A DNA stretch of 64,000 bases, taken from contig PHSP01000003.1 in the NCBI GenBank assembly GCA_002862125.1, positions 1,550,001 through 1,614,000 on the forward strand, read 5' to 3'. How positions within the stretch are numbered: the stretch's first letter is position 1; every line of letters starts with the position of its first letter. The notes beneath the pieces were generated by a model, which searched no databases, had not been told where the DNA came from, and saw nothing but the letters and a program-made list of their open reading frames with translations. This document shows, in pieces, positions 7,361 to 51,498 of the stretch. This stretch comes from Methylobacter sp. KS41 (lineage in GTDB: Bacteria > Pseudomonadota > Gammaproteobacteria > Methylococcales > Methylomonadaceae). The translations under genes were made by a program, and so were the position numbers.

Positions 7361-7437
7361 GCCCCGATAGCTCAGCAGGATAGAGCGGTCCCCTCCTAAG
7401 GGACAGGCCGGTGGTTCAAATCCGCCTCGGGGCACCA
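7361..7437 (+). tRNA. tRNA-Arg (anticodon CCT)
   Basis: A complete cloverleaf can be folded: acceptor GCCCCGA pairs with TCGGGGC, the D arm is GCTC...GAGC, the anticodon stem-loop is GTCCC-CTCCTAA-GGGAC with anticodon CCT, and the T arm is CCGGTGGTTCAAATCCGCC-like with GGTTCAAATCC. CCA is encoded (7435-7437). It reads rare AGG codons. The Zorya island starts about 520 bp downstream, and tRNA genes are common island entry sites. Confidence 0.97.
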
Positions 7438-7960
7438 AACAGGCGTTTAAACAAATTCAACGAAGTACAAAAACCCACAAGTTATCTGGCTTAGCGGGTT
7501 TTTTCATTGTCCAACGAAATGCAATAGGGTTTGTGTAGGTAGCATGAGCTTGAAAAGTAGATTGGCAATACTTAAATTGACCTTGCCTAAAACATCACAT
7601 CACAAGATTTTGATCGTTGGGTACTGCGTATCAAGAATGATCAGAATTAATGTTTAAATTCAAAAGAACACGCATTTTGCAGTGGTAATGTTTAATTGGT
7701 GGCATATTCCCCAAGATCAATTAACCTTGAACAATTTCGCGTTTTTCCTGGCTTCCAATATAATCTGTCATGATGATTCCATCGAAGATAATCAGTGCCT
7801 TTAAGGTTGGATTGGTTTTTAAAGTAAGAGGATAATTTACAAACAATTTAGCTTTGTGTCGTCTTTTGAGTGCCAGTCTTTATTTTAACCACAAGTTATT
7901 GATACGGGTGGATTAAAGAGACGCTTAGGACAAACCGTTTTCTTGGATAGATAATACCCC
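7438..7960 (+). other. Intergenic region between tRNA-Arg and Zorya
   Basis: About 520 bp with no convincing ORF on either strand. It contains the possible tRNA terminator and presumably the zor promoter. I looked for an integrase remnant and for a repeat of the tRNA 3' end elsewhere in the window and did not find either. A weak Shine-Dalgarno-like sequence (TTGGATAG) precedes the zorA ATG. Confidence 0.5.
7469..7504 (+). terminator. Possible weak terminator after tRNA-Arg
   Basis: AAAAACCC (7469-7476) can pair with GGGTTTTT (7496-7503) around a 19-base loop and is followed by T residues. The stem is AT-rich with a long loop, so termination is only possible. Confidence 0.35.
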
Positions 7961-9121
7961 ATGACTGATCTCATCTTCAATTTTCTTCCTGGCTTTTTTA
8001 GCGACTTACTTGGAATACCCATCAGCAATAACCCGCGAGTCGTTATCAATCTGGTTGCCGTCTTGCTGCTTTTATTTTTGGGTTGGTATGTCGTGCAAGC
8101 CGTTCGGGCGCTATTTCGCCTTGGACTTGCCGTGCGGGATTTAGAAAAAGTCCGCCAGCAAAAGACTAATGACGAGATCGTCACCAAGGATGATCTTCAG
8201 CAGGTGTTCAGGACTGCTTTTTTCGCTAGCGTTTGGAATAGTTTCCGCGACACACTGCATGAGCAATACGACTATCAAGACGGACAAAAGCGGTTGGTGC
8301 GTATTCGCTCCACGGTGCCCGCCGAAACTGTATTCAGCCCGCAATCGCTGGTGGATGCCCGGTTGAATGTCGAGTTTTTCAAGCATCTACCGGGCATCTT
8401 AACTGGCATTGGTATCATCGGCACTTTCTATGGGCTGATTAACGGCATTCAACATTTCGATCCTTCGTTACTGGCTAAAGCGAAAACCGATCCCGCGCAA
8501 ATGGACAAACTGTTCGTCGGGCTGAAAGTCCTGTTTGATGAAGTCCAAGGCGCGTTCATCGCCTCGTTCTTTGCGATTGGTACGGCGATGGTGATAACTG
8601 TGCTGGAGAAATTTCTACTCAATGTCTGCTACCGCAAGCTGGAGCAACTTTGCCGGATACTGGACGAGCTTTATGAGAGCGGAGTGGGCGAGGACTATCT
8701 CGCCTCATTGGTTAAATCTTCTGCGGAAAGTGCGACGCAAACGGCGCAACTAAAACAGAGCCTGGTGACGGAACTGTCCGAATTGCTACGGGACTTGAAC
8801 GCGCAGCAGATCAAGCAATCGGAAGTGCTTGGGAGCTTACTTTCGGCGAAAATTCAAGAGCATATAGACGCCAGCGAACATCATGGCGAACGGTTTCGCA
8901 CAGAACTGAAGGATGGGTTGGCTGATATTGGCAAGACCGTCGCCGGAGTCGCTGGTGGACAAGGTGAGACGGTGACGGGAATGTTAGAACACTTGATCCA
9001 CACCTTCTCGGCCAATATCCAGAGTACCTTCGGCGACCAGATGCAAGGTCAGGCTGAAATGATGAATACGGCTGTCACCTCAATGGCGGAGATGCAAACC
9101 GGCTTCAACCCATCTTCGTGA
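7961..9121 (+). CDS. zorA: ZorA, N-terminal fragment (MotA/TolQ/ExbB-like motor subunit), interrupted by IS
   Basis: ZorA is the membrane stator-like subunit of Zorya; with ZorB it forms a proton-driven motor carrying a long cytoplasmic tail. This fragment has 386 residues, of which 382 are native. It shows a first membrane helix (about residues 25-45), then HLPGILTGIGIIGTFYGLI and GAFIASFFAIGTAMVITVLE, which match the MotA/TolQ/ExbB channel helices. After about residue 250 the sequence is helical and polar, the start of the tail. An IS1634-family element begins at 9109 and adds four foreign residues before a TGA at 9119. Removing 9109-11217 plus one TCAA copy rejoins the gene in frame with the downstream fragment. 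G+C looks higher than in the feo genes. Confidence 0.92.
   Translation: MTDLIFNFLPGFFSDLLGIPISNNPRVVINLVAVLLLLFLGWYVVQAVRALFRLGLAVRDLEKVRQQKTNDEIVTKDDLQQVFRTAFFASVWNSFRDTLHEQYDYQDGQKRLVRIRSTVPAETVFSPQSLVDARLNVEFFKHLPGILTGIGIIGTFYGLINGIQHFDPSLLAKAKTDPAQMDKLFVGLKVLFDEVQGAFIASFFAIGTAMVITVLEKFLLNVCYRKLEQLCRILDELYESGVGEDYLASLVKSSAESATQTAQLKQSLVTELSELLRDLNAQQIKQSEVLGSLLSAKIQEHIDASEHHGERFRTELKDGLADIGKTVAGVAGGQGETVTGMLEHLIHTFSANIQSTFGDQMQGQAEMMNTAVTSMAEMQTGFNPSS
9105..9108. repeat. Target site duplication, left copy (TCAA)
   Basis: TCAA directly precedes the left end of the IS element and is repeated directly after its right end at 11218-11221. Removing one copy restores the zorA frame (GGC TTC AAG ACG CTG), which supports these as the true insertion scars. 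Confidence 0.85.
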
Positions 9122-11217
9122 ATTCTACTGATAATTTCTTGTTATTTCAATAAGTTAAAATTTTAATTTATCTCAAATGGCACTACATATTTTTTCTTAT
9201 CAATAATCGTCTTACATTTACCTATCAGGTCAGGTTTGATACTTAAGGCTGCGTATAGTTGTTTTTGGCGTGTTTCGGCTTGGGTTGTTGTGCGCAGGTG
9301 AATGGTCTTATTATCCTCTGTCGGCAAGGTAATCGTGAGGCGTTGTTGGGTCGACATAATGTTGCGTATGCTGTCCCAGCTTAAATGGATACCCTGCTGC
9401 TTGAGTTGATAGCGCAGGGTATGCACCAGATGGTAGGCCATTAAAGTAATGAACAAGTGTCCGGTGACGCGTTCTTCTTTATGGTGGAAAACTGGACGTA
9501 AGCCGAGGTCGGTTTTCAAGCTTCTGAACGTGGCTTCGATCTCGGTCAGCATGATATAGGTTGACCACAATTGTTCTTCCGACCAGTCCGGAGTAGTGGT
9601 TCTCAGGCAGTAAACTCCGCAGTGCCGGTCTTTTTGTTCACTTTTGGGTTCACGCTGCCATTCAATACGGATGGCGTTGTTTTTCGCGTCATCAGCAATG
9701 ACTTCAATGCGGTAGTCTTGCGCGACGCGGCTGTTTTTTTCGCGCAGCCGGCCAATGCGTTCGAGTATTTTCGCGTAGTTTTTGATCGTGCCTTTTTTGT
9801 CCAAACCGGCATGGAGCTTGTCGAGCCCCTCTTCCAGACGAACGTGGAAGCGGTTGCGGATGGCCTGTTCTTTTTTGGCTTTTTGATCGGAGTGGCAATA
9901 GAGCCGGGTTTCCCCGGTTTCTGCATCGATTGTGCGGTAAACGCTGACTTTGCTCTGTCCGGTTTCCCTAACCAGTACGGCATTATCCTGGTCTCTGGGA
10001 TCTTGTAGGTAGCGTTCCCGGCTGACCACCAGGTAAAGATAACCGCGCGCGCTTAACCAGGCGAGATTGTCAGCGCTGGCAATGCCGGCATCCATGATAA
10101 TGACCGGTTTTTCTCCGGCTAATGGATTTTTCCCCTGCAGACCGTCCAGCATCAGCGCCAACGTGGCGGGCTCGCTGGCGTTGCCTGGAAAGACCTGGCT
10201 GCTGAGCGGGAAGCCATTGCCATCCAGAACCAGACCTAAGGTCACCAATGGGCAATCACGGCGTTTTTCTTTGGAGCGGCCGAACCGGGCCTTGGGGTTT
10301 TGGGCGCACTGGCCTTCAAAATAGGTGTTGGTCAAGTCGTACAAGACGATGCTCCGGTTTAAATCGAATAAGGTCTGCTCCTGAGCACCCAGAAAAGTTT
10401 CCAGCGCCGACTGGTGTTTGAGCAACTTATCGCTGATGGTGTACAGGCGCGTCAGACTGGTGCTGCCGTAGTCATGATCAAGCAGTTCACCCAGGCCGGT
10501 ACGCGCTTGCAGCCAGTCATGGGTCTGCAGTTCGCTGCCGGGTGAAATCATGCGCCCTATGATGCTGCCCAATGCCGCCGCGGCATCGATTTTGTTAAAG
10601 CCCAGTGCGGCAAGCTTCTGATCCAGCTGCAACTGCATGACCGCATGCAACGCCAACGTTTCCCCGCCGATGCTGCGGGCTTGATGGGCTTCGATATGAT
10701 TAATGCCGACACTATGATAATCCTGCCCGGGCGTCGCTGCCGCCACCGGTTGCGCCAGTTTCGCGATGATGAGGTCGCTATAGCGCACGGCGGCGGCCTC
10801 CAGAAGTTGACCGGCATCATCCTCTAAATGAAACAACTCGTCTTGGCGCGGCGCTGAGCCTTGCAGAAGCTGTTCAATTCTGGCCGCAAGCAAGGGCCAG
10901 TGCGCGGGCTCAATGGCAAAGTCTTTGCCCAGATTGAGTAGCGTACGTTGCTTGACTTGTGTTCCCTCACGCACGGATTCAACGATCCGATAGGTATAGG
11001 AATCTTCGCCATGATCCGCTGTTTTGGTTTTGGTTCTTCGAATATACATGGCTCTAGCATGGGCGCTATTCCGGAAAAAATCAAGATGCAAACCTAAATG
11101 GATGGCACTACAAGAGAGAGCGAAAAATGAGCATTGATTTTAAAGGGTTTTTTCGAAATGAAAACCGCCGGTAACCAAAAATCAATAACTTAGGGAGACT
11201 GGAGTCACGAAGATGGG
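9109..11217 (-). mobile_element. Complete IS1634-family insertion sequence inside zorA
   Basis: A 2109-bp element bounded by 13-bp perfect terminal inverted repeats, CCCATCTTCGTGA at 9109-9121 and its complement at 11205-11217, with 4-bp direct repeats TCAA outside. It carries one full-length transposase on the minus strand, opposite to zorA. Everything needed for transposition appears intact, and the restorable target gene suggests a recent insertion. A decayed relative lies at 31889-34183. Confidence 0.93.
9163..11049 (-). CDS. IS1634-family transposase (IS4 superfamily, DDE)
   Basis: A 628-residue DDE transposase. The frame extends to 11091, but MYIRRTKTKTADHG at 11049 is the usual family N-terminus. 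Family marks are the YDLTNTYFEG motif with the first catalytic Asp, LVLDGNGFPLSSQVFPGN, IIMDAGIASADNLAWL with the second Asp, and the C-terminal IEATFRSLKTDLGLRPVFHH carrying the catalytic Glu. No stop or frameshift is present. It is encoded against the direction of zorA, so its transcription would not drive zorB-D. Confidence 0.93.
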   Translation of the reverse strand: MYIRRTKTKTADHGEDSYTYRIVESVREGTQVKQRTLLNLGKDFAIEPAHWPLLAARIEQLLQGSAPRQDELFHLEDDAGQLLEAAAVRYSDLIIAKLAQPVAAATPGQDYHSVGINHIEAHQARSIGGETLALHAVMQLQLDQKLAALGFNKIDAAAALGSIIGRMISPGSELQTHDWLQARTGLGELLDHDYGSTSLTRLYTISDKLLKHQSALETFLGAQEQTLFDLNRSIVLYDLTNTYFEGQCAQNPKARFGRSKEKRRDCPLVTLGLVLDGNGFPLSSQVFPGNASEPATLALMLDGLQGKNPLAGEKPVIIMDAGIASADNLAWLSARGYLYLVVSRERYLQDPRDQDNAVLVRETGQSKVSVYRTIDAETGETRLYCHSDQKAKKEQAIRNRFHVRLEEGLDKLHAGLDKKGTIKNYAKILERIGRLREKNSRVAQDYRIEVIADDAKNNAIRIEWQREPKSEQKDRHCGVYCLRTTTPDWSEEQLWSTYIMLTEIEATFRSLKTDLGLRPVFHHKEERVTGHLFITLMAYHLVHTLRYQLKQQGIHLSWDSIRNIMSTQQRLTITLPTEDNKTIHLRTTTQAETRQKQLYAALSIKPDLIGKCKTIIDKKKYVVPFEIN

Positions 11218-11221
11218 TCAA

Positions 11222-12164
11222 GACGCTGCTGCAAGACTTGCGCGAATCAGGCAAGTTAGAGCGCGAAGACTTGACGACCAAAATCACCTCTTTAGTCGGG
11301 ACGCTTGAGGCGCAGCAAGGCAAGCTTGAAAGTCAGATGACTGCCTTCATTGAAGCAATCCAAACCCAGATTGGCGCGAGTCAGCAGGAAACCATGGTCC
11401 AAGTGCGGGAGAGTCTACACGAGATTCATGACTCGGTTAGCAATCTCCTCGCCGATATGGAGAAGGAACGACGGGCTATCGTAGACACAGAGCGGGATCT
11501 TCATCGTCAATTTACCGACACATCAAACCAACTCGTGCTGGATATGGACAAACACATCCGTAATTTAGTTGAAGAAATTGGGAAAACGGTTGTCGCTCTT
11601 AACAACAATGTTACGGCTCTGGATAATACCTCCATCGCCGCCATCAAGGGCATGGACGAAGGCGCTGCTCGGATTTCCCTGGCGACTGACCATTTTGCCA
11701 AGGCTGGGAATGTTGTTAGCGGAGTGATGCAACAGGCCGAGATGGTTTCATCTCAACTTTCCGGCAGCGCCGGTTCATTGGCCCAAGCGTCCAAAGCCCT
11801 GGAGAGCCAATTGAGCCAATATGCCGTCACGCGGGATGCTCTCGCCCGAATGGTCGCCGAAATGAACGTAATGCTAGAGCGGGCCAAACAGGAGGCTGGA
11901 GTAAACCAGCAAATCGTTGAGGACATGCGCCGTATGGTGGCGAGCTTTGGCGTACTCAAAGACGATATGGACGAATTCGTGGACAGCGTTTCCAAATTGC
12001 TTGCCGAAACAATGACCAAGTTCAGACAGGACATGGGAACCCATAACGCGGAATTCCACATACATCATGCCGATATGCTTAACCAGGTAGCTTCAGCTTA
12101 TGAACCCTTGGCGGCATCTATTGGCGGTCTCACAGAAATGATCGCCAAAACAAGGAGGAGCTGA
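11222..12164 (+). CDS. zorA: ZorA, C-terminal fragment (cytoplasmic tail) after the IS
   Basis: About 313 residues that continue zorA directly: the frame runs from the codon split by the IS (AA|G) through TLLQDLRESGKLEREDL and so on. The sequence is almost entirely charged, Gln/Glu/Ala-rich helix, as expected for the long intracellular ZorA tail; no membrane helix is present. It has no proper start of its own; TTG at 11238 or Met codons farther down would be needed. With the upstream part the ancestral protein had about 696 residues, similar to type I ZorA. The stop overlaps the zorB ATG (TGATG). Confidence 0.88.
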
Positions 12165-12859
12165 TGCTCTCGCGTGGCATCCGCACTCCGCGTGCTAAGG
12201 AAGAAGGCGAAAAGCCGTTCTGGATTTCTTACGCCGACCTGATGACAGCAATGATGATGCTGTTCCTCATCGTGATGACTTTTTCCTTAGTTATTATCAC
12301 TAATCCAGGGCCGGAGCTGGATCATCTTAAAAAAATCCAGCAAATCTGCGATCAGATCAAAACAGCGGCCAAGGATGTCCAAGGCGTCACTGTCGATTGC
12401 ATCAACAACCGCATCGATTTTGGTGTTCAAGCTCAATTTGGCAACAACGATTCCAAACTATCCGATAATGCCAAACAAAAACTGCGCGAATTTGTGCCCA
12501 TCTTGCTGGCTGTGGCCCGCAAAGACCTGGGTAAACTGCTCAAGCGCGTGGTAGTGGAAGGCTACGCCTCGCCGACCGGCAGTTATTTGCTCAATATCCA
12601 ATTGAGTATGCGCCGCGCCGAGACCGTTTTGTGCAGCCTGTTTGATGCACCAAAACCCTACGAAATACCATTGTCCATCGCGGATAAACAGATGGTGCGT
12701 GACCTCTTTCTAGTGGGTGGCTACAGTTTCAATAACGGGCAGGGAAAGTCGGTGGCAGAAATGCGGCGGGTAGAATTCAAATTGGATTTTTTGGGTTTTG
12801 AAGAGCAAGTACCTTCGACAAAACTAAGCAGTATCGATAATTTTGGGCAGTGCCAATGA
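12164..12859 (+). CDS. zorB: ZorB, MotB/OmpA-like stator subunit of Zorya
   Basis: A 231-residue membrane-anchored partner of ZorA. A cytoplasmic N-terminus is followed by one membrane helix, ISYADLMTAMMMLFLIVMTF, with the conserved proton-binding aspartate at residue 25. The periplasmic part has the OmpA/MotB peptidoglycan-binding fold (LLKRVVVEGYASPTGSYLLN and SMRRAETV). Its ATG overlaps the zorA stop and is preceded by AGGAGG, so expression depends on the zorA message or on transcription starting inside the IS or the tail fragment. Confidence 0.93.
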   Translation: MLSRGIRTPRAKEEGEKPFWISYADLMTAMMMLFLIVMTFSLVIITNPGPELDHLKKIQQICDQIKTAAKDVQGVTVDCINNRIDFGVQAQFGNNDSKLSDNAKQKLREFVPILLAVARKDLGKLLKRVVVEGYASPTGSYLLNIQLSMRRAETVLCSLFDAPKPYEIPLSIADKQMVRDLFLVGGYSFNNGQGKSVAEMRRVEFKLDFLGFEEQVPSTKLSSIDNFGQCQ

Positions 12860-12893
12860 AGCGTCAGGATAGAAATCAGCCATATGGCGGTTT

Positions 12894-14459
12894 GTGAGTA
12901 AAACAGTGCGATACCTAAACCGCTTTAACCAATACATCAGGGAGTATGAAAAAATCTACCCTTTGCCCCGGTTGGAAAATTCCATCCAACATATGGAAGC
13001 GGTAAGTAAACAGATTGAGGAAAAGTTGAAAGATGCGGCCATGGGAGAGCCTAACCCGGAATTGGTGCAGCAGACCATCCAAAAGTTTTTCCGCTGGGCG
13101 GTAAAGCCATCAAGCGAAAATTTCAGTTGGCTGGAAGTCGCTTTATTGTGCCGTGGATTGTTAGTCGATATTCCAAAATACGGCTCGTTGATAAAATCCG
13201 GACATGACGTTAAGGATTTGCTAAGGAAATTTTTTCCCCAGTATGAAAGCTCGATGTTGAGCGCCTATCCATGGCAAGGCTTACTTAATGCCTATTTGAA
13301 CGCTTCCCCTCGCCAAAATCCAGTGCTTGATGAAAACTGGCAAGAGTTGCGGACGTTTTTGGAAAACACGCTGGAGAAGGTCGCCATGCAATCGAGTTTC
13401 AAACCACGCTGGCTGGAGGCGCTCATCTGCCATCGAATTGTGCTTACGGAAAATGCGACGCAGAGTCTGGCGATAGATGCCTTGCAGGGCCGAATGGAAA
13501 GAGTTGATCGCATCGCCCGCGAGGTGAACATACCATCAACGAGCTGGTTTTGGCCCGAGTTGCTGATGTCTCAAGTTGAAGCTATCACCGCTTACCCTGA
13601 CGAGCAATTCAAACCGGCTATCGACCTGATTTTGCCTCAATTACAAGATCGCAAGGAGTGTTTGGACGATGGACTGGCGCGGATACTTAACCGCTATGCC
13701 AAGTGCGCCAGTTTGGAGTCGCAACAAGAACTCGAATCCATGTCGATTTCCCGTTGGAAAAATCCTTCTCTGGAGAAACAGCGTAATTGGGAGAGAGTAA
13801 CCCCAGAAGCCAAGCGGATGGTGCAGCGTTGGCTTGCGCAGAAAGATATTTACGACATATTAGGGAAGCTTGTTGAGGACAATCGGCGATATGAGTTCTG
13901 GCTACAATTTCTGGATCAAATTGAGTATACCTTCGTTTGGCTTGGAAAAGACGCACGAGAGTCTTTCCCGGATCTTTTGCATAATCGTCAAGATCGGTGC
14001 GCCGTGCTGAATCATTCCGGAAAGCCCGACAACAATGTCATCATGATGAAAATACGGGATGTGTTCATTACCGAATCTGGCGCTAGAGCGGGTGGAAAGT
14101 GCTGGGCATATCGAGAGGAAAAAATGCGGCCACTACTCCAAAGATCAAGTCTTAGTTACGATTTCTTCCGTGACCCTAATAATAATCTTTTCAAAACCAA
14201 TTGGGGCGAAAGCGATGGCCTTATCCATATATCCGGTTCTTGGGAGAAAATATTCCAAAACGAGCTAACGAGGTTTAATATCGAGCCAGACACGATGGCT
14301 TTCGACGAAATAGTTCACCGTTATCAATTGCGCGTTGAAACCCTGCCCAGTGGCACGGAAAGGATACGTCATGATTATGCCGCAGGAATTCTCGCTGATT
14401 TATTACGTCGGCATGGATTTTCTTACTCGTATAAAGGTGGTTTTTATAGAAACCCCTGA
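12894..14459 (+). CDS. zorC: ZorC, EH-signature-domain protein of type I Zorya
   Basis: A 521-residue soluble protein without membrane segments. In type I Zorya ZorC is a cytosolic component with an EH signature domain, reported to bind DNA and work with ZorD. The segment RRYEFWLQFLDQIEYTFVWLG (about residues 328-348) resembles the EH signature core. The position between zorB and zorD supports the call. The start is GTG at 12894, 34 bp after zorB; the Shine-Dalgarno sequence is weak. Function rests on family and context, not on recognisable catalytic residues. Confidence 0.88.
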   Translation: MSKTVRYLNRFNQYIREYEKIYPLPRLENSIQHMEAVSKQIEEKLKDAAMGEPNPELVQQTIQKFFRWAVKPSSENFSWLEVALLCRGLLVDIPKYGSLIKSGHDVKDLLRKFFPQYESSMLSAYPWQGLLNAYLNASPRQNPVLDENWQELRTFLENTLEKVAMQSSFKPRWLEALICHRIVLTENATQSLAIDALQGRMERVDRIAREVNIPSTSWFWPELLMSQVEAITAYPDEQFKPAIDLILPQLQDRKECLDDGLARILNRYAKCASLESQQELESMSISRWKNPSLEKQRNWERVTPEAKRMVQRWLAQKDIYDILGKLVEDNRRYEFWLQFLDQIEYTFVWLGKDARESFPDLLHNRQDRCAVLNHSGKPDNNVIMMKIRDVFITESGARAGGKCWAYREEKMRPLLQRSSLSYDFFRDPNNNLFKTNWGESDGLIHISGSWEKIFQNELTRFNIEPDTMAFDEIVHRYQLRVETLPSGTERIRHDYAAGILADLLRRHGFSYSYKGGFYRNP

Positions 14460-14480
14460 AATTCAACCTGATATTGACCC

Positions 14481-17400
14481 ATGTTTTTCAAAAGAAAGCC
14501 AGGCGTAACCCAGCCTTTGGTAATGTTTTCGGCCGAAGGTGTTACCTTCATAGACTCTCCAGCGTCAGACCGTGCCGCCTATCTGGCCCAATTAGCCGAA
14601 ATCGGTTTAGTCACGCCTAAGGATAACGGCTATCTCCTTAGTTGGCCGGATTTGTACGAGTTGGCTGGCGACACCGAGCATGCGGACAGTTTAAGTCTGC
14701 TGGGGCTACCGCCGTGGAGCGAAGCCAGACCCGCGCTGTCTAGCGCCGGGGCGTTAACTGACCCTGGCTTTCGCATCAACCTCGAAGGCTGGCGCAATCT
14801 GAACGGGACATCTCTTCAAGCCGCAAGTCCGGTTCAGGGCGGCTTGCTTGAAATTGGCGGGCTGAAAACGCTGCTACTCCAGCCCGTCTGGGCCTTGGTG
14901 GACGAGGTGATTCGCTTTGCCTCCCTGCCGTCCAGTCACCGAACCGTAGAGAAGAACTATCAAAGCTGGGGGCGGATTCGCCGCCTGGCACTCGCAGCAG
15001 GGGCGAACCTCGACGACTTTCTGACAAAGACCATTGTGCTGACCCCAGAAACACTGAACCTGGTACTTGAACGCTTGGAAGATGCGGCGATTCAAGTTAC
15101 ACCCACATTTCAAGATGCCCCGGCGGAATGGCTGGACCGTTTCGACTGTTTATCCACCATCCCCGATTACTACAACCTTCCACAACCTGGGTGCGGGTTG
15201 ATACATGTTGCGATTGCCGAACCCGTAAAAAAAGTGCTACGCGAGATCAAGCGGATGCCAGGGCGGGTGGCGCGTGGCCCGAGGGCGCAGGCATTTGTCC
15301 GTAATCCTTACGCTGTATTGGGCGAGGCCGCCGAAGCAGTGCTTCCCCCGGAAAAATACGAGGCTTCGCTGCATAGCGCGGATATTGTGTTTTATAGGTT
15401 TGAGCTTGCCGCCAAGCAGGACGGCAAGGGCAATATCCTCTCCGTGTTTCTCGATTTGGAGGCCACCCGCGCCGGGGCCATACCTGCTTTTGAGCGCTGT
15501 GTTTTTAATTCGCCCGGTGCCTTGTCGCGATTAAGGGAGGAAATCCAGCGCCAGTTGGACGAGGGCTATCCCTGTTTCAACTGGGAAGGCTTTGAGGTGG
15601 AGTTGCGTGGCGACGCAGGAGAAAAGCTGGCGCAATTGCGGACTTGGCATGAACGCTGGCTGCATCCTGTCCCGGCGATCACTTACGAGGAGGTTTACGA
15701 GTTTCCCGATTATGCCCAGCGGGTGATCAAAATTGGCGAGCGCCAGCCATATTACTCGCCGTTTATCTTCAAAATCGAAGCAACAGAGCCTTGGTTGTCC
15801 ACAAATACCTTGGTTGGCTTCGGCAAGTCCACAGACAGTCCTATCACGTTAATCCGCACCCAAGCCGATTTGGATCAATTCGCTACTGCCATGGCGCTAG
15901 CCAAGGCTGATGGCAAAGAGACGTTTGACTATCCGGGTCTGGATAAGCCCATGCCTGTCCAAGAAGCGGAATCGATGATTCCTTTGGTTCAAGGGGTTAT
16001 CAGCGCCGCTTGCGAAGGAAAGCCGCTGCCTGACAAAGTGGAAAAGTCTCAGCAATCCCGAAAAGCGCTGCTCATCGAAACCAATATCGAAGCGGTCGGT
16101 TATGCGGAAGGCCAAAGTACGGCCCATTTAGCGTTCAACAAAAGCCGTGCAACTGGCGTGACCCTCCCTGCTACATTGCGGGCCGACTTGAAAGAGCACC
16201 AACGCATTGGCGTCGCGTGGTTACAGCATCTTTGGCGCAATAGCCCTGCAACCTATTCAGGCTGCGTACTGGGCGATGACATGGGGCTGGGCAAAACGCT
16301 TCAGTTGCTGGCCTTCATTGTCTGGTATTTGGAACAACCTAATCCTTTGCCGGTGTTGATTGTAGCGCCAGTCAGTCTGCTGGAAAACTGGCAAAACGAA
16401 ATCAAGAAATTCTTCGCACCCGGCTGCGTCCGTGTGTTGACCTTATATGGCAAGTTGCTGGCAGAGAAGAAAGTCGCTCAGTCGGCGATTGACCAACGCC
16501 TGCTTGAAGACGGATTAACGAAGTTTCTGATCGACGGCTGGCTAGGCGACGCCAATTTGGTGTTGACGACTTACGAAACGATGCGCGATTTGTCCATTTC
16601 ACTGGGCCAGCAAACATGGAGCATTATGGTCTGTGACGAGGCGCAGAAAATCAAAACACCCGGTACACTAGTCACGGACGCCGCCAAGGCGCAAAAAGCC
16701 GGTTTCAAGATTGCCTGCACCGGGACGCCGGTGGAAAACTCGCTGACGGATTTATGGTGCTTGTTCGACTTTGTGCAGCCCGGCTTGCTTGGGCCGCTCA
16801 ACCGTTTTGGCTTGAACTATCGCCGCCCCATTGAAAACACCCATGGCGATGCCGAACAGAACGCAGCGCTGGAGCAGTTGAAAATTTTGATCGAGCCGCA
16901 ATTACTTCGCCGCACCAAGCGCGAAGTCGCAGAAGATTTGCCTATCAAATATGACGACAGCCACGAACATATCCGGCAGATAAACCGGATACCGTTAAGC
17001 GACAATCAGCGGCAGTTATACGGCGAGGCCATTGCCGATTACCAACGTAATCGGCAGGTGGCGCAGGAAGCAACGCGGCGCAGCAATCCCATCCTCGCGG
17101 TGCTGCACCGTCTGCGGGCGATTTGCGCCGACCCTAGACCTAAAGGCTTGCAGCCTGATTTAAGCCTTTCGGTCGATAGCTACCGGAAGCAATCACCTAA
17201 ATTCAACTGGTTGATTGAGCGGCTAGACGAGGTGCGCGGTAAGAATGAAAAGGCGCTTATTTTCACCGAGTATCTGGATTTGCAAAGAGCCTTGCAACAT
17301 TACCTGCGTTTGCATTACCGCCTATCGCCGTTATCGCCGCGCATTATTAACGGGTCGGTAAAAAGTAGCAGCGAAGCCACCGAAAGCCGTCAAAAATTTA

Positions 17401-18176
17401 TTGACGAGTTCCAAGCGAGCAAGGGCTTCAATGTATTGATTCTATCGCCCAAAGCCGCTGGTTTCGGCCTTAACATCCAAGCCGCCAACCATGTGATCCA
17501 CTACACCCGCCCATGGAACCCGGCTGTGGAAGACCAAGCCACCGACCGTGCTTATCGCATAGGCCAAACAAGGGACGTTCATATTTATTACCCTACTGTT
17601 TGCGCCGAAGAACTGTTGACGTTCGAGGCGAAACTGGATGATTTATTACGGCACAAAAGGGAACTGGCAGGTGATATGCTGAATGGGACGCCGACGGTAA
17701 GCCAAGATGAGCTGGTTGATTTGCTCGATGAGGCAGGATATGCAGAATCCGTCGAGGCAGAAGCGCGGATTACGACAGAACAATTACCCCGGATTGTCGG
17801 GAAGCCCTTTGAGGCGCTTTGCAGTGCGCTGTGGAAATGCCAAGGTTATCATTGCCTAACAACGCCTACTGCGGGCGACGGCGGCGTTGACATTGTTGCG
17901 ATCAAAGGCCAGCATGGTTTGTTGATTCAATGCAAGTCCTCCACAGCCACCAAAGGCTTAGGTTGGGAGGCGGTTAAGGATGTCGTGGCCGGAGAAGCAG
18001 CTTATCAACAAGCTTACCCAAGCGTGAAATTCAGCAAAGTAGCCGTCACCAATCAATTTTTTAATGATAACTCGATCCGGCAAGCGGAGATAAACGGGGT
18101 AAGTTTGATTGATAGTGGCATTTTGATGGAGTGGCTTTCGCTGTACCCTCAGCCATTTAAGGTTTTACAGCAATGA
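14481..18176 (+). CDS. zorD: ZorD, SNF2-type helicase with C-terminal Mrr-like nuclease domain
   Basis: A 1231-residue effector. The N-terminal 550 residues are a ZorD-specific region. The SNF2 ATPase follows: motif I DDMGLGKTLQLL (about 598-609), a DEAQ Walker B (about 717), TGTPVENSLTDLWCLFDF, and the helicase C part with SPKAAGFGLNIQAAN and DRAYRIGQTRDVHIY (about 1020-1035). The last 120 residues form a restriction-endonuclease-like (Mrr_cat) domain: FEALCSALWKCQGY, then GDGGVDIVA and LLIQCKSS, a PD-(D/E)xK pattern. Helicase-nuclease architecture fits degradation of invading DNA. It lies 21 bp after zorC. No frameshift is seen. Confidence 0.94.
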   Translation: MFFKRKPGVTQPLVMFSAEGVTFIDSPASDRAAYLAQLAEIGLVTPKDNGYLLSWPDLYELAGDTEHADSLSLLGLPPWSEARPALSSAGALTDPGFRINLEGWRNLNGTSLQAASPVQGGLLEIGGLKTLLLQPVWALVDEVIRFASLPSSHRTVEKNYQSWGRIRRLALAAGANLDDFLTKTIVLTPETLNLVLERLEDAAIQVTPTFQDAPAEWLDRFDCLSTIPDYYNLPQPGCGLIHVAIAEPVKKVLREIKRMPGRVARGPRAQAFVRNPYAVLGEAAEAVLPPEKYEASLHSADIVFYRFELAAKQDGKGNILSVFLDLEATRAGAIPAFERCVFNSPGALSRLREEIQRQLDEGYPCFNWEGFEVELRGDAGEKLAQLRTWHERWLHPVPAITYEEVYEFPDYAQRVIKIGERQPYYSPFIFKIEATEPWLSTNTLVGFGKSTDSPITLIRTQADLDQFATAMALAKADGKETFDYPGLDKPMPVQEAESMIPLVQGVISAACEGKPLPDKVEKSQQSRKALLIETNIEAVGYAEGQSTAHLAFNKSRATGVTLPATLRADLKEHQRIGVAWLQHLWRNSPATYSGCVLGDDMGLGKTLQLLAFIVWYLEQPNPLPVLIVAPVSLLENWQNEIKKFFAPGCVRVLTLYGKLLAEKKVAQSAIDQRLLEDGLTKFLIDGWLGDANLVLTTYETMRDLSISLGQQTWSIMVCDEAQKIKTPGTLVTDAAKAQKAGFKIACTGTPVENSLTDLWCLFDFVQPGLLGPLNRFGLNYRRPIENTHGDAEQNAALEQLKILIEPQLLRRTKREVAEDLPIKYDDSHEHIRQINRIPLSDNQRQLYGEAIADYQRNRQVAQEATRRSNPILAVLHRLRAICADPRPKGLQPDLSLSVDSYRKQSPKFNWLIERLDEVRGKNEKALIFTEYLDLQRALQHYLRLHYRLSPLSPRIINGSVKSSSEATESRQKFIDEFQASKGFNVLILSPKAAGFGLNIQAANHVIHYTRPWNPAVEDQATDRAYRIGQTRDVHIYYPTVCAEELLTFEAKLDDLLRHKRELAGDMLNGTPTVSQDELVDLLDEAGYAESVEAEARITTEQLPRIVGKPFEALCSALWKCQGYHCLTTPTAGDGGVDIVAIKGQHGLLIQCKSSTATKGLGWEAVKDVVAGEAAYQQAYPSVKFSKVAVTNQFFNDNSIRQAEINGVSLIDSGILMEWLSLYPQPFKVLQQ

Positions 18177-31819: not shown

Positions 31820-32756
31820 GGTCCGTTGACGGCTAAAGCATAGGCGAACCTCTATTAATTGTATATTAGAGTAATAGCTAATTCGTCGGCTCAATGGCAA
31901 AGTCTCAGCATGGATTGAGAATTGTGCATTGCTTGGCTAGCATGCCCATACCAAGGGATTGAACGGTCCGGTAAGTATGGGGTTCTCCATCATCAGCTGC
32001 GGTTTTTGTTTTTGTTCTTCGCGTAATCAAGGCTTTGGCATTGGCGAAAAACGCGAAAAATATCAAGACGTCTCGTCAAATGGATGTCGCTAAAAAGAAG
32101 AGTTAAAATATCCAATTGATGTTAAATGATATTTTTAGATAGGAAATCGCCGATAATAATAAATCAATAACTGTGCGACAAGCTAAGCTTGTCATTTCTT
32201 GCAAGGTGAAAGTCCTTGTCTGGAACTCAAGGGAATGAGTTCAAAGGCCTAACCAGCCACCAGTATCGAGTGTTGCACCTTTGGCGGAGTATTGATGTGG
32301 CTATATGGCTACACTAATGCGAACAAAATAGGTGAAGCGTACACAGAGAACCGTATAGGTCACAGGGGGCTTGCACGTCCCTGAAGCTATTTCAGCATCG
32401 TTAGTTTATAAAACAAACGGCGACATTTTAGTTATGATGGAAGCCAATACTAAGGAATCATTTTGGTGAGATTCTGGAGGGTTTGTCGGTGTCAGAGAGC
32501 GTGACATGTATAGAGAGAAATGATGAGAACTTGTGAGACCCTCTTGGTTCCTGGTAACAAGATAAGTTGACTAAACCTGAATCTTGTTTATGCAGGTAAG
32601 CCTACCCAACTAAAAGAAGGGTGGCTGAAGACTGGAAGGGAGTCAGATACATTCATAGTACTCTGAGCGCGGGAAAGCCGCGTACATTGGGGAAGGGATG
32701 TACAAAACTGTGTAGCCCGCAAAGGCAACTCTTACCGAACATGACGGATTGGATAA

Positions 32757-34043
32757 ATGGAGCAAACCTCACTGCGGGGAATAGCCAATAAAGCGGTACA
32801 AGATAAGACTTACCGATTTCGGAATTTGTTTGGCTTACTAACGGTTGGATTCTTGTTTTGGTGTTGGGGGTTTGTCAACAAGAAAGCAAGTGCGGGTGTA
32901 GATCGCATCGATGCTCGGATGTACGAAGAGCATCTCATCGGCAATATTGAACAGTTGGTTGAGCAAATCAAAGGAAAGACGTATCGGACTAAGTTGGTGC
33001 TTAGAAAGTATATTCCGAAGCTGGGCGGGAAGTTACGCCCTCTAGGAATACCTGCACTAGCAGATAAGCTGTTGCAATTAGCAGTAGCTAAGATTTTAGA
33101 GGCAATCTACGAGCAGGATTTTCTAGGCTGTAGTTATGGTTATCGGCCCAATACAGGTGCGCTTAAAGCGGTCAAGGATTTGTCACAGGCGCTCATGTTT
33201 GGACGGTATCACTACCTTGTTGAGGCTGATATTAAAGGCTTTTTCAACAATATAGACCATGATCTATTGATGGAAATGTTGGGAAAGCGAATAGATGACA
33301 AAGCCTTCTTGAATCTGATTTGGAAATGGCTGAAGGCAGGCATACTTGATAAAGGGCAGGTCATTTGCCCGCTAACGGGTACGCCGCAAGGTGGAGTGGT
33401 ATCGCCAATTTTGGCTAATATTTATCTTCACACGGTGCTGGATGTTTGGTTTTATGAAACAGTACAAACGCATTGCCGAGGACAGGTTTATCTCTGTCGT
33501 TATGCGGATGATTTTGTTTGTGCTTTTGAATATGAAAATGATGCGCAACGTTTCTACGAAGCCTTAGAGAAAAGACTCAATAAATTTAACTTGGAAGTAG
33601 CGGAAAATAAAACCCATCTGTTGGTTTTCAGTCGCTGCAAGATAAGAAATGGATCGAGTTTTGATTTTCTAGGGTTTGAGTTTCGCTGGGGAGTAAATCG
33701 TCATATTAAGAATCGGTCACGTATTCCGATTATAAAGCGGCGTACTTCACGAGAGAAATTGTACGCATCATTGGCAAATTTTAAAGTGTGGCTTAAGAAA
33801 TCGAGTCTGTTACCCAAGAACATTCTGTTTGCAATGTTAAACAGGAAATTACGTGGATATTATAATTACTACGGAATCATAGGTAACTACAAGAGTTTAG
33901 GCTGCTTTGTTTATCGTGTTACGCAAGCTCTTTTCAAATGGCTGAATCGGCGCTCACAGCGCAAGAGCTACAATTGGGAAGGGTTTAAAGAACTGGTAAA
34001 ACACTTTGGAATCGTCAAACCGCGAATCTGTCATGCTTTCTGA
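32757..34043 (+). CDS. ltrA: Group II intron reverse transcriptase/maturase
   Basis: A 428-residue intron-encoded protein. RT motifs are LRPLGIPALADKLLQ, YGYRPNTGALKAVKDL, EADIKGFFNNIDHD, GTPQGGVVSPILANIYLH and the catalytic YADDFV (about residue 250). The C-terminal part is the maturase (X) domain with KLRGYYNYYGIIGN. There is no HNH endonuclease domain, so mobility would need nicks made elsewhere, as in endonuclease-less lineages. ATG at 32757 follows the 5' RNA domains; no frameshift is seen. Confidence 0.95.
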   Translation: MEQTSLRGIANKAVQDKTYRFRNLFGLLTVGFLFWCWGFVNKKASAGVDRIDARMYEEHLIGNIEQLVEQIKGKTYRTKLVLRKYIPKLGGKLRPLGIPALADKLLQLAVAKILEAIYEQDFLGCSYGYRPNTGALKAVKDLSQALMFGRYHYLVEADIKGFFNNIDHDLLMEMLGKRIDDKAFLNLIWKWLKAGILDKGQVICPLTGTPQGGVVSPILANIYLHTVLDVWFYETVQTHCRGQVYLCRYADDFVCAFEYENDAQRFYEALEKRLNKFNLEVAENKTHLLVFSRCKIRNGSSFDFLGFEFRWGVNRHIKNRSRIPIIKRRTSREKLYASLANFKVWLKKSSLLPKNILFAMLNRKLRGYYNYYGIIGNYKSLGCFVYRVTQALFKWLNRRSQRKSYNWEGFKELVKHFGIVKPRICHAF

Positions 34044-50493: not shown

Positions 50494-51498
50494 CTAAGCC
50501 GCAAGCTTCTCGACAGCCTTATTCCCTTGCCAATACCCACACCAGTTACGCGAAGTAGGCTTTTTAGCGCAGCGACTTGTAATATCGGCAAAAATTTCAC
50601 CGGTTGAAGTACGGCGCGTGTCTTCACGATATGCAATTTCATTGGCGTAGGCCGCAAGATTCTGGGTACCCATTTTATGAACTTGTCCATGTTGCATTCG
50701 ACGGAAACGGGAGAAATAAGACTCGGCTTGGTTGGTGCATTCCCCCTTTTTGCCTTTGTAGCGTTCCTGGTGATTAACGCGCTTCATTTCGAATTTGGCA
50801 TGTAACGGATCGTAAGCCTTGGCTTCGTCGGCATGGATCGTGGCATCATTGTCAATATTTTCATCTGCAAGCTTTTTCATGTCGGCTTGATTCTCTGACT
50901 TCACCATGAATACTTTAGTTTTGATTGCGCCTTCGCCTTTCTCGCCGCGCTTACGAATCGTAATGATGCAGCGTTTATTGGGGTTTTGGTTTTCAGCAAC
51001 GCGTAAATCTACCCGGTCTGTTTTTTCATTGCGTGGGCGCACATGGCCGTTCACATAAGCCCCATCAATCTCTACCTCACCATTCAATTTATCGGCCATT
51101 GTCATATCAATCAATGATTCACGTATCTTGTGCATCATGACGAAAGCCGTCTTGTACTGCACATCCAGATCACGAGAAAGCTGTAAGGCGGAAAATCCTT
51201 TCGCTGTATTGGTATAGAGCGCAATGGCTCCAAGGTAAATACGTAGCGGTAGCTTGTGATTTGCGAATAAGGTTCCTGATGTAACGCTGAATGTATGATT
51301 ACAGCCTTTACAACGCCATTGCTTACGAGTTTTGATGAAATAGTGATTGTCGATACAGCCACAAACAGGGCAAACCGGATAGTCATCACCCCAACGGGAT
51401 TCTCTGAACAGATCAAACGCCGCTTCATCGGTCATGGTAAAAATTTGTATCAATGACATTGATCTGGCTTTTGCTGAAAGTAAAAAGTGTTGTGCCAT
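50494..51498 (-). CDS. IS1595-family transposase
   Basis: 334 residues. The N-terminal zinc ribbon CPVCGCIDNHYFIKTR...WRCKGC (about residues 42-65) and FSVTSGTLFANHKLPLRIYLG are marks of IS1595-type transposases. The DDE domain starts with EVEIDGAYVNGHVRP (first Asp), has HADEAKAYDPL (second Asp) and an NQAESYFSRFRRMQHG (Glu) motif. The protein looks intact. I could not find clear terminal inverted repeats; GCTTAGG/CCTAAGC at 50473-50499 forms a hairpin over the stop. A 14-bp palindrome (51516-51529) lies just upstream of the start. Confidence 0.9.
   Translation of the reverse strand: MAQHFLLSAKARSMSLIQIFTMTDEAAFDLFRESRWGDDYPVCPVCGCIDNHYFIKTRKQWRCKGCNHTFSVTSGTLFANHKLPLRIYLGAIALYTNTAKGFSALQLSRDLDVQYKTAFVMMHKIRESLIDMTMADKLNGEVEIDGAYVNGHVRPRNEKTDRVDLRVAENQNPNKRCIITIRKRGEKGEGAIKTKVFMVKSENQADMKKLADENIDNDATIHADEAKAYDPLHAKFEMKRVNHQERYKGKKGECTNQAESYFSRFRRMQHGQVHKMGTQNLAAYANEIAYREDTRRTSTGEIFADITSRCAKKPTSRNWCGYWQGNKAVEKLAA

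Follow-up and report, generated by a model that had tools for sequence, protein, structure and literature searches.

Organization of the Zorya locus

The window (the whole stretch of 64,000 nucleotides that was analysed) contains a type I Zorya operon, zorABCD, at 7961-18176, in which zorA lies in two pieces on either side of an insertion sequence (Table 1). The operon shares its gene order with other type I systems, as well as MotA/MotB-like ZorAB, an EH-signature ZorC and a ZorD with SNF2 and Mrr domains, and differs from them in its split zorA. Both pieces of zorA match the same ZorA profile (the match of the 3' part was made with its ORF from 11238), which upholds the identity given to this gene in the preliminary description. 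The 3' part encodes most of the cytoplasmic tail, and its stop codon overlaps the start of zorB. The preliminary description also reported that zorB, zorC and zorD show no decay, and we found all three open over the lengths in Table 1, with no visible decay.

Table 1 Features of the interrupted Zorya operon (window coordinates)
Feature	Position	Strand	Details
zorA 5' part	7961..9108	+	382 codons + 2 bases; PDLC00598 ZorA1, E 3.2e-122, profile positions 15-352 of 663
Left direct repeat TCAA	9105..9108		target-site duplication
Insertion sequence	9109..11217	-	2109 bp; at least 18 complete copies in the genome
Left inverted repeat CCCATCTTCGTGA	9109..9121		perfect match to the right one over 13 bp
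Transposase ORF	9163..11091	-	642 aa from TTG; NF033559, PF01609 DDE_Tnp_1
Right inverted repeat TCACGAAGATGGG	11205..11217		perfect, 13 bp
Right direct repeat TCAA	11218..11221		
zorA 3' part	11220..12164	+	314 codons + stop; PDLC00598, profile positions 358-659 of 663
zorB	12164..12859	+	231 aa; PDLC00611, E 1.4e-83; MotB_plug, OmpA
zorC	12894..14459	+	521 aa; PDLC00613, E 1.7e-67; EH_Signature
zorD	14481..18176	+	1231 aa; PDLC00632, 1269.9 bits; SNF2-rel_dom, Helicase_C, Mrr_cat

In ZorB, MotB_plug scores above its cut-off and OmpA slightly below (26.5 vs 27.2); PF15611 in ZorC and PF00176, PF00271 and PF04471 in ZorD exceed their Pfam cut-offs, and the PADLOC ZorC1 and ZorD1 profiles match ZorC and ZorD. 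The N-terminal piece of ZorA alone passes NF033916 (284, cut-off 250) and stays under the ZorA1 equivalog NF041794 (320, cut-off 750). Because the NCBIfam type I equivalog cut-offs are missed by ZorB (216 of 400 bits, NF041788), ZorC (125 of 490) and ZorD (1021 of 1500), the operon appears to represent a divergent branch, which has close relatives in other Methylococcales. Among named records, the nearest relatives of its ZorB are assigned to Methylococcales, Methylobacter, Candidatus Methylobacter oryzae, Methylococcaceae, Crenothrix polyspora and Methylomicrobium. The host genome (4.74 Mb, four contigs) has two above-cut-off matches to the AMO/pMMO family PF02461, which together with these relatives makes a gammaproteobacterial methanotroph the most likely host. 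A search of the genome for a second ZorA returned only the two halves of the interrupted gene.

A tRNA-Arg (CCT) gene is found 0.5 kb upstream of zorA (window 7361-7437), and other tRNA genes lie near the operons of some relatives. To see whether Zorya might be an island at this tRNA-Arg gene, we compared the operon flanks by blastn with the relatives' loci. L057 shares 57 bp immediately before zorA, and L078 shares 353 bp of the DEAD-helicase gene at a distance of 9 kb upstream of zorB; nothing further matched among the loci compared.

The insertion element and its copies

The element had been placed correctly to the base, and its perfect inverted repeats and flanking TCAA repeats are as first described. 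The preliminary description called the site a readable scar; the target-site duplication is indeed readable, although the word scar is loose for a site where the whole element is still present. When the element is taken out, an open frame of 697 codons from stop to stop spans the site, and the codons before and after it add up to the 696 residues proposed for the ancestral ZorA. In all five close relatives (L053-L057) the site is uninterrupted, with TTCAA present once and no element. L057 is identical to the zorA flanks for 64 nt before the element and 61 nt after it, and the order GGC TTC AAG ACG CTG, which had been obtained by removing the element and one repeat, is the natural order in that locus. 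zorA is a single frame of 696, 710, 697 and 769 residues in L053, L054, L056 and L057, respectively, and is frameshifted in L055. The zorA of L057 has 73 extra codons that resemble a diverged duplication (22 of 50 positions match at a lag of 73).

The sole long ORF of the element reads against zorA and encodes a transposase, whose first ATG is at residue 15 (a start at 11049 would give 628 aa). Among NCBIfam profiles, this protein scores 314 bits against NF033559 (transpos_IS1634, cut-off 100), in line with the earlier IS1634 assignment, and scores far below the cut-offs of the IS4, IS1380, IS701, IS1182 and IS5 models. According to the available portion of PMC2266710, members of the IS1634 family have AT-rich direct repeats of 5-6 bp, a length of 1500-2000 bp and ends of the form C-----YT, with two members being exceptions that carry long variable direct repeats. 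The element resembles this family in its single ORF, its transposase score and its end CCCATCTT, which fits the end consensus, but it is slightly longer (2109 bp) and has direct repeats of 4 bp at all 18 copies examined. Since these repeats are 4 bp and not 5-6 bp, we describe the element only as bearing an IS1634-type transposase; a 4-bp target duplication for such a transposase is a mild surprise.

A genome search with the element, in which 40 of 56 candidate matches were scored, returned at least 18 full-length matches at ~100% identity, three at 87% and seven fragments. The full copies differ from the copy in zorA at 0-5 of 2109 positions (two are identical to it), with a mean pairwise difference of 2.5 and a maximum of 6. 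After the copies were oriented, exact 4-bp direct repeats were found at 18 of 18 full copies examined (TTAA at eleven, TCAA at two, and CCAG, TTAT, ATAA, TTAG and GTAA at one each), and chance is therefore excluded in practice. These results demonstrate that the insertion in zorA is a genuine transposition, into TCAA and with duplication of those four bases. Across the genus, matches to the element were found in 7 of 35 genomes, the source genome counted, and the best of those outside the source genome, in G114, covers the full length at 87%.

Three of the 18 insertion sites lie within frames of more than 600 codons, namely zorA, a transposase gene and a comEC-like gene, and the frames at the remaining 15 do not exceed 177 codons. 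The copy in the comEC-like gene (L017; own genome, C1:1109289-1111397) leaves DUF4131, Competence and Lactamase_B domains spread across both pieces, and the only match to the competence family PF03772 in the genome adjoins this copy. DNA uptake may thus have been lost too through this insertion, a second mild surprise. The copy in the transposase gene (L016; own genome, C1:2098162-2100270) is a nested insertion between DUF772 and DDE_Tnp_1_6 pieces. Elsewhere in the window, a remnant resembling the element at 70% (31888-32172) lies near a gene for a group II intron-type reverse transcriptase (32757-34043; RVT_1, GIIM), and an IS1595-type transposase gene occupies 50494-51498.

Other zorA loci and the age of the insertion

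We surveyed zorA in other loci, using zorB to find them so that their selection did not depend on the condition of zorA. An order-level search of 311 genomes gave 26 strong ZorB matches besides the operon's own (E up to 1e-30; weaker matches were unused), from which 25 loci were taken (G235:C152, at a contig edge, was omitted) and 21 had at least 2.5 kb upstream of zorB. A contig scan contributed 80 of 306 loci, 76 of them with enough upstream sequence, and six contigs common to both sets leave 91 zorA loci overall. L058, L064, L067, L074, L085, L091, L096 and L142 were dropped for short upstream sequence (L067 and L142 are one contig). We called zorA intact if its frame reached 520 aa or more and lay no further than 400 bp from zorB; by this measure, one long frame adjoins zorB in 89 of the 91 loci. 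In the remaining two, zorA is broken without an insertion: one carries frameshifts (L055, the same locus as L082), and the other, L077, shows independent decay, with the start lost and in-frame stops present next to an open zorB. An insertion sequence in zorA was seen in none of the 91 assessable loci, a count that may be slightly optimistic, as some of the dropped contigs end in zorA and insertion sequences break short-read contigs. This absence argues against a recurrent or programmed interruption of zorA, and the insertion described here looks isolated. Tail length itself varies among relatives, with ZorA being 605 aa in L059 and L060; these two loci match zorA, zorB and zorC and have no zorD match above 60 bits in the downstream stretch available.

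Substitution patterns were compared between the operon and its closest relatives. Both zorA pieces have a dS of 0.21 against L057, and pairwise dN/dS with L056 and L057 is 0.06-0.17 for both pieces and zorB. For zorD the ratio is 0.15 (with L056), and for zorC it is 0.34 with L056 and 0.18 with L053. On the operon's own branch, synonymous and non-synonymous changes number 23/10 in the N-terminal piece of zorA, 14.5/12.5 in the C-terminal piece and 18/2 in zorB (sister L057, outgroup L056), and 118/46 in zorD (sister L056, outgroup L053). The non-synonymous share is below a neutral value of 0.73, which is assumed and not derived from these genes, in every case (binomial P 1.6e-3 to 6e-33). Purifying selection thus appears to have predominated in the zorA pieces, zorB and zorD, as would be expected if the element arrived recently; because the own-branch changes are mainly synonymous, most of the branch would be older than the insertion. 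The preliminary description had left open whether the insertion was recent or the remaining genes were kept for another reason, and recency suffices, given these mainly synonymous changes and the near identity of the element's copies.

The C-terminal piece of zorA has more amino-acid changes on its own branch than on that of L057 (14.5/12.5 vs 19/3; Fisher P 0.015-0.03, uncorrected, from one of two tests of this kind). This difference hints that constraint on the tail may already have been relaxed for a while. With L056 as sister and L053 as outgroup, its own branch counts 18/2, and in the N-terminal piece it is the sister branch that is richer in amino-acid changes (14.5/12.5; P 0.19). zorC is 65% identical to L056 and 76% to L053, and zorD is 85% and 76% identical, respectively. 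These values suggest that zorC (window 12894-14459; compared with L053, L054 and L056) may have been exchanged between operons, and because of its higher ratios and discordant history zorC says little about the age of the insertion.

Predicted consequences for Zorya defense

In place, zorA is a 386-aa ORF that ends in FNPSS at a TGA within the left inverted repeat (9119-9121). Residues 24-380 align to residues 19-363 of E. coli ZorA (729 residues), with E. coli residue 363 opposite residue 380 here, two before the split. In Shewanella ZorA, the C-terminal extension comprises residues 236-696 (PMC11890865, in the portion available). From the sequence, translation halts at the stop supplied by the element after 386 residues, so that the membrane motor and the initial part of the cytoplasmic tail are kept and ~314 tail residues are cut off. 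Signals are reported to travel through the long ZorA tail to ZorC and ZorD (available text of PMC12409362), and none of the cytoplasmic-domain mutants examined, whether of type I or type II ZorA, retained anti-phage activity (available text of PMC11890865). Given the reported relay of the motor's signal by the tail and the loss of defense in published tail mutants, the strain most likely lacks a working Zorya system, and we consider this the best reading. We are highly confident of an ordinary loss-of-function event, in which an element that encodes an IS1634-type transposase and is multiplying in a methanotroph genome recently entered the TTAA-like target TCAA in zorA, duplicated those four bases and most likely disabled Zorya. 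On this reading, the insertion is probably young relative to the split from the nearest relatives, and the rest of the operon would for that reason be without visible decay.

The preliminary description named an assembly artefact as what would refute the insertion, and the element is indeed a near-identical repeat through which unrelated contigs could be joined, or a rare allele could enter the consensus. Three end fragments of the element lie at contig ends (C3 and C4 each terminate in one, and the third is 52 bases from the end of C1), so the assembly did break at this element. A false join, however, would produce unmatched repeats and unrelated flanks, whereas matching repeats border all 18 copies examined, and the flanks here form one gene that corresponds to a contiguous natural allele in five of five close relatives, which makes an artefact extremely unlikely. 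The culture may nevertheless hold a mixture of alleles. A genuine insertion might still leave a working ZorA if a short-tailed motor and a tail made from an internal start reassembled. Both pieces are open and under what appears to be mainly purifying selection, and internal starts are present (TTG 11238 and ATG 11337). ZorA chains of 280, 434 and 495 residues, each with ZorB, occur in PDB entries 8qyh, 8qyy and 8qyk; judging from their lengths these would be tail-shortened constructs, and a short-tailed motor may therefore still assemble. However, tail mutations abolish defense in two other Zorya systems (available text of PMC11890865), and a recent insertion accounts equally well for the open frames. 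A scan of 7438-12400 found nine promoter-like sites (4.9 +/- 2.1 expected) and ten terminator-like sites (5.6 +/- 2.5 expected). At the element's right end it found no promoter-like site pointing outward on the plus strand. A functional split ZorA accordingly has very little chance of being correct.

It is also very unlikely that the remaining genes are kept for a role independent of ZorAB, with ZorC and ZorD defending without an intact motor. The open frames of zorB, zorC and zorD would agree with such a role, and type II ZorE is reported to be active against one phage alongside Druantia III with no need for ZorAB (available text of PMC13192584). That precedent, however, concerns a type II system and another effector, and the young age of the insertion suffices to explain the open genes, the substitution data fitting both readings equally. 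Finally, we give a very small chance to a reversible off-switch, in which exact excision of the element would re-form zorA in a subpopulation and make Zorya a bet-hedged defense, and the same lineage of elements may disarm both phage defense and DNA uptake. If exact excision does occur, the element would provide simple on/off control of a rotary-motor defense.

The loss of a defense gene to an insertion sequence is otherwise familiar, and the literature searched, as far as its text was available, held no earlier report of an insertion in zorA. In Acinetobacter, comM is often interrupted by mobile elements, some of which carry Zorya (available text of PMC11472951). The event here is of the same known kind, a mobile element interrupting a gene, and differs in that a plain insertion sequence interrupts a Zorya gene. 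The locus would offer a methanotroph in which the Zorya tail has been cleanly knocked out by nature. It also carries a warning for surveys of such systems, since this operon would pass as complete wherever defense systems are counted from zorB, zorC and zorD.
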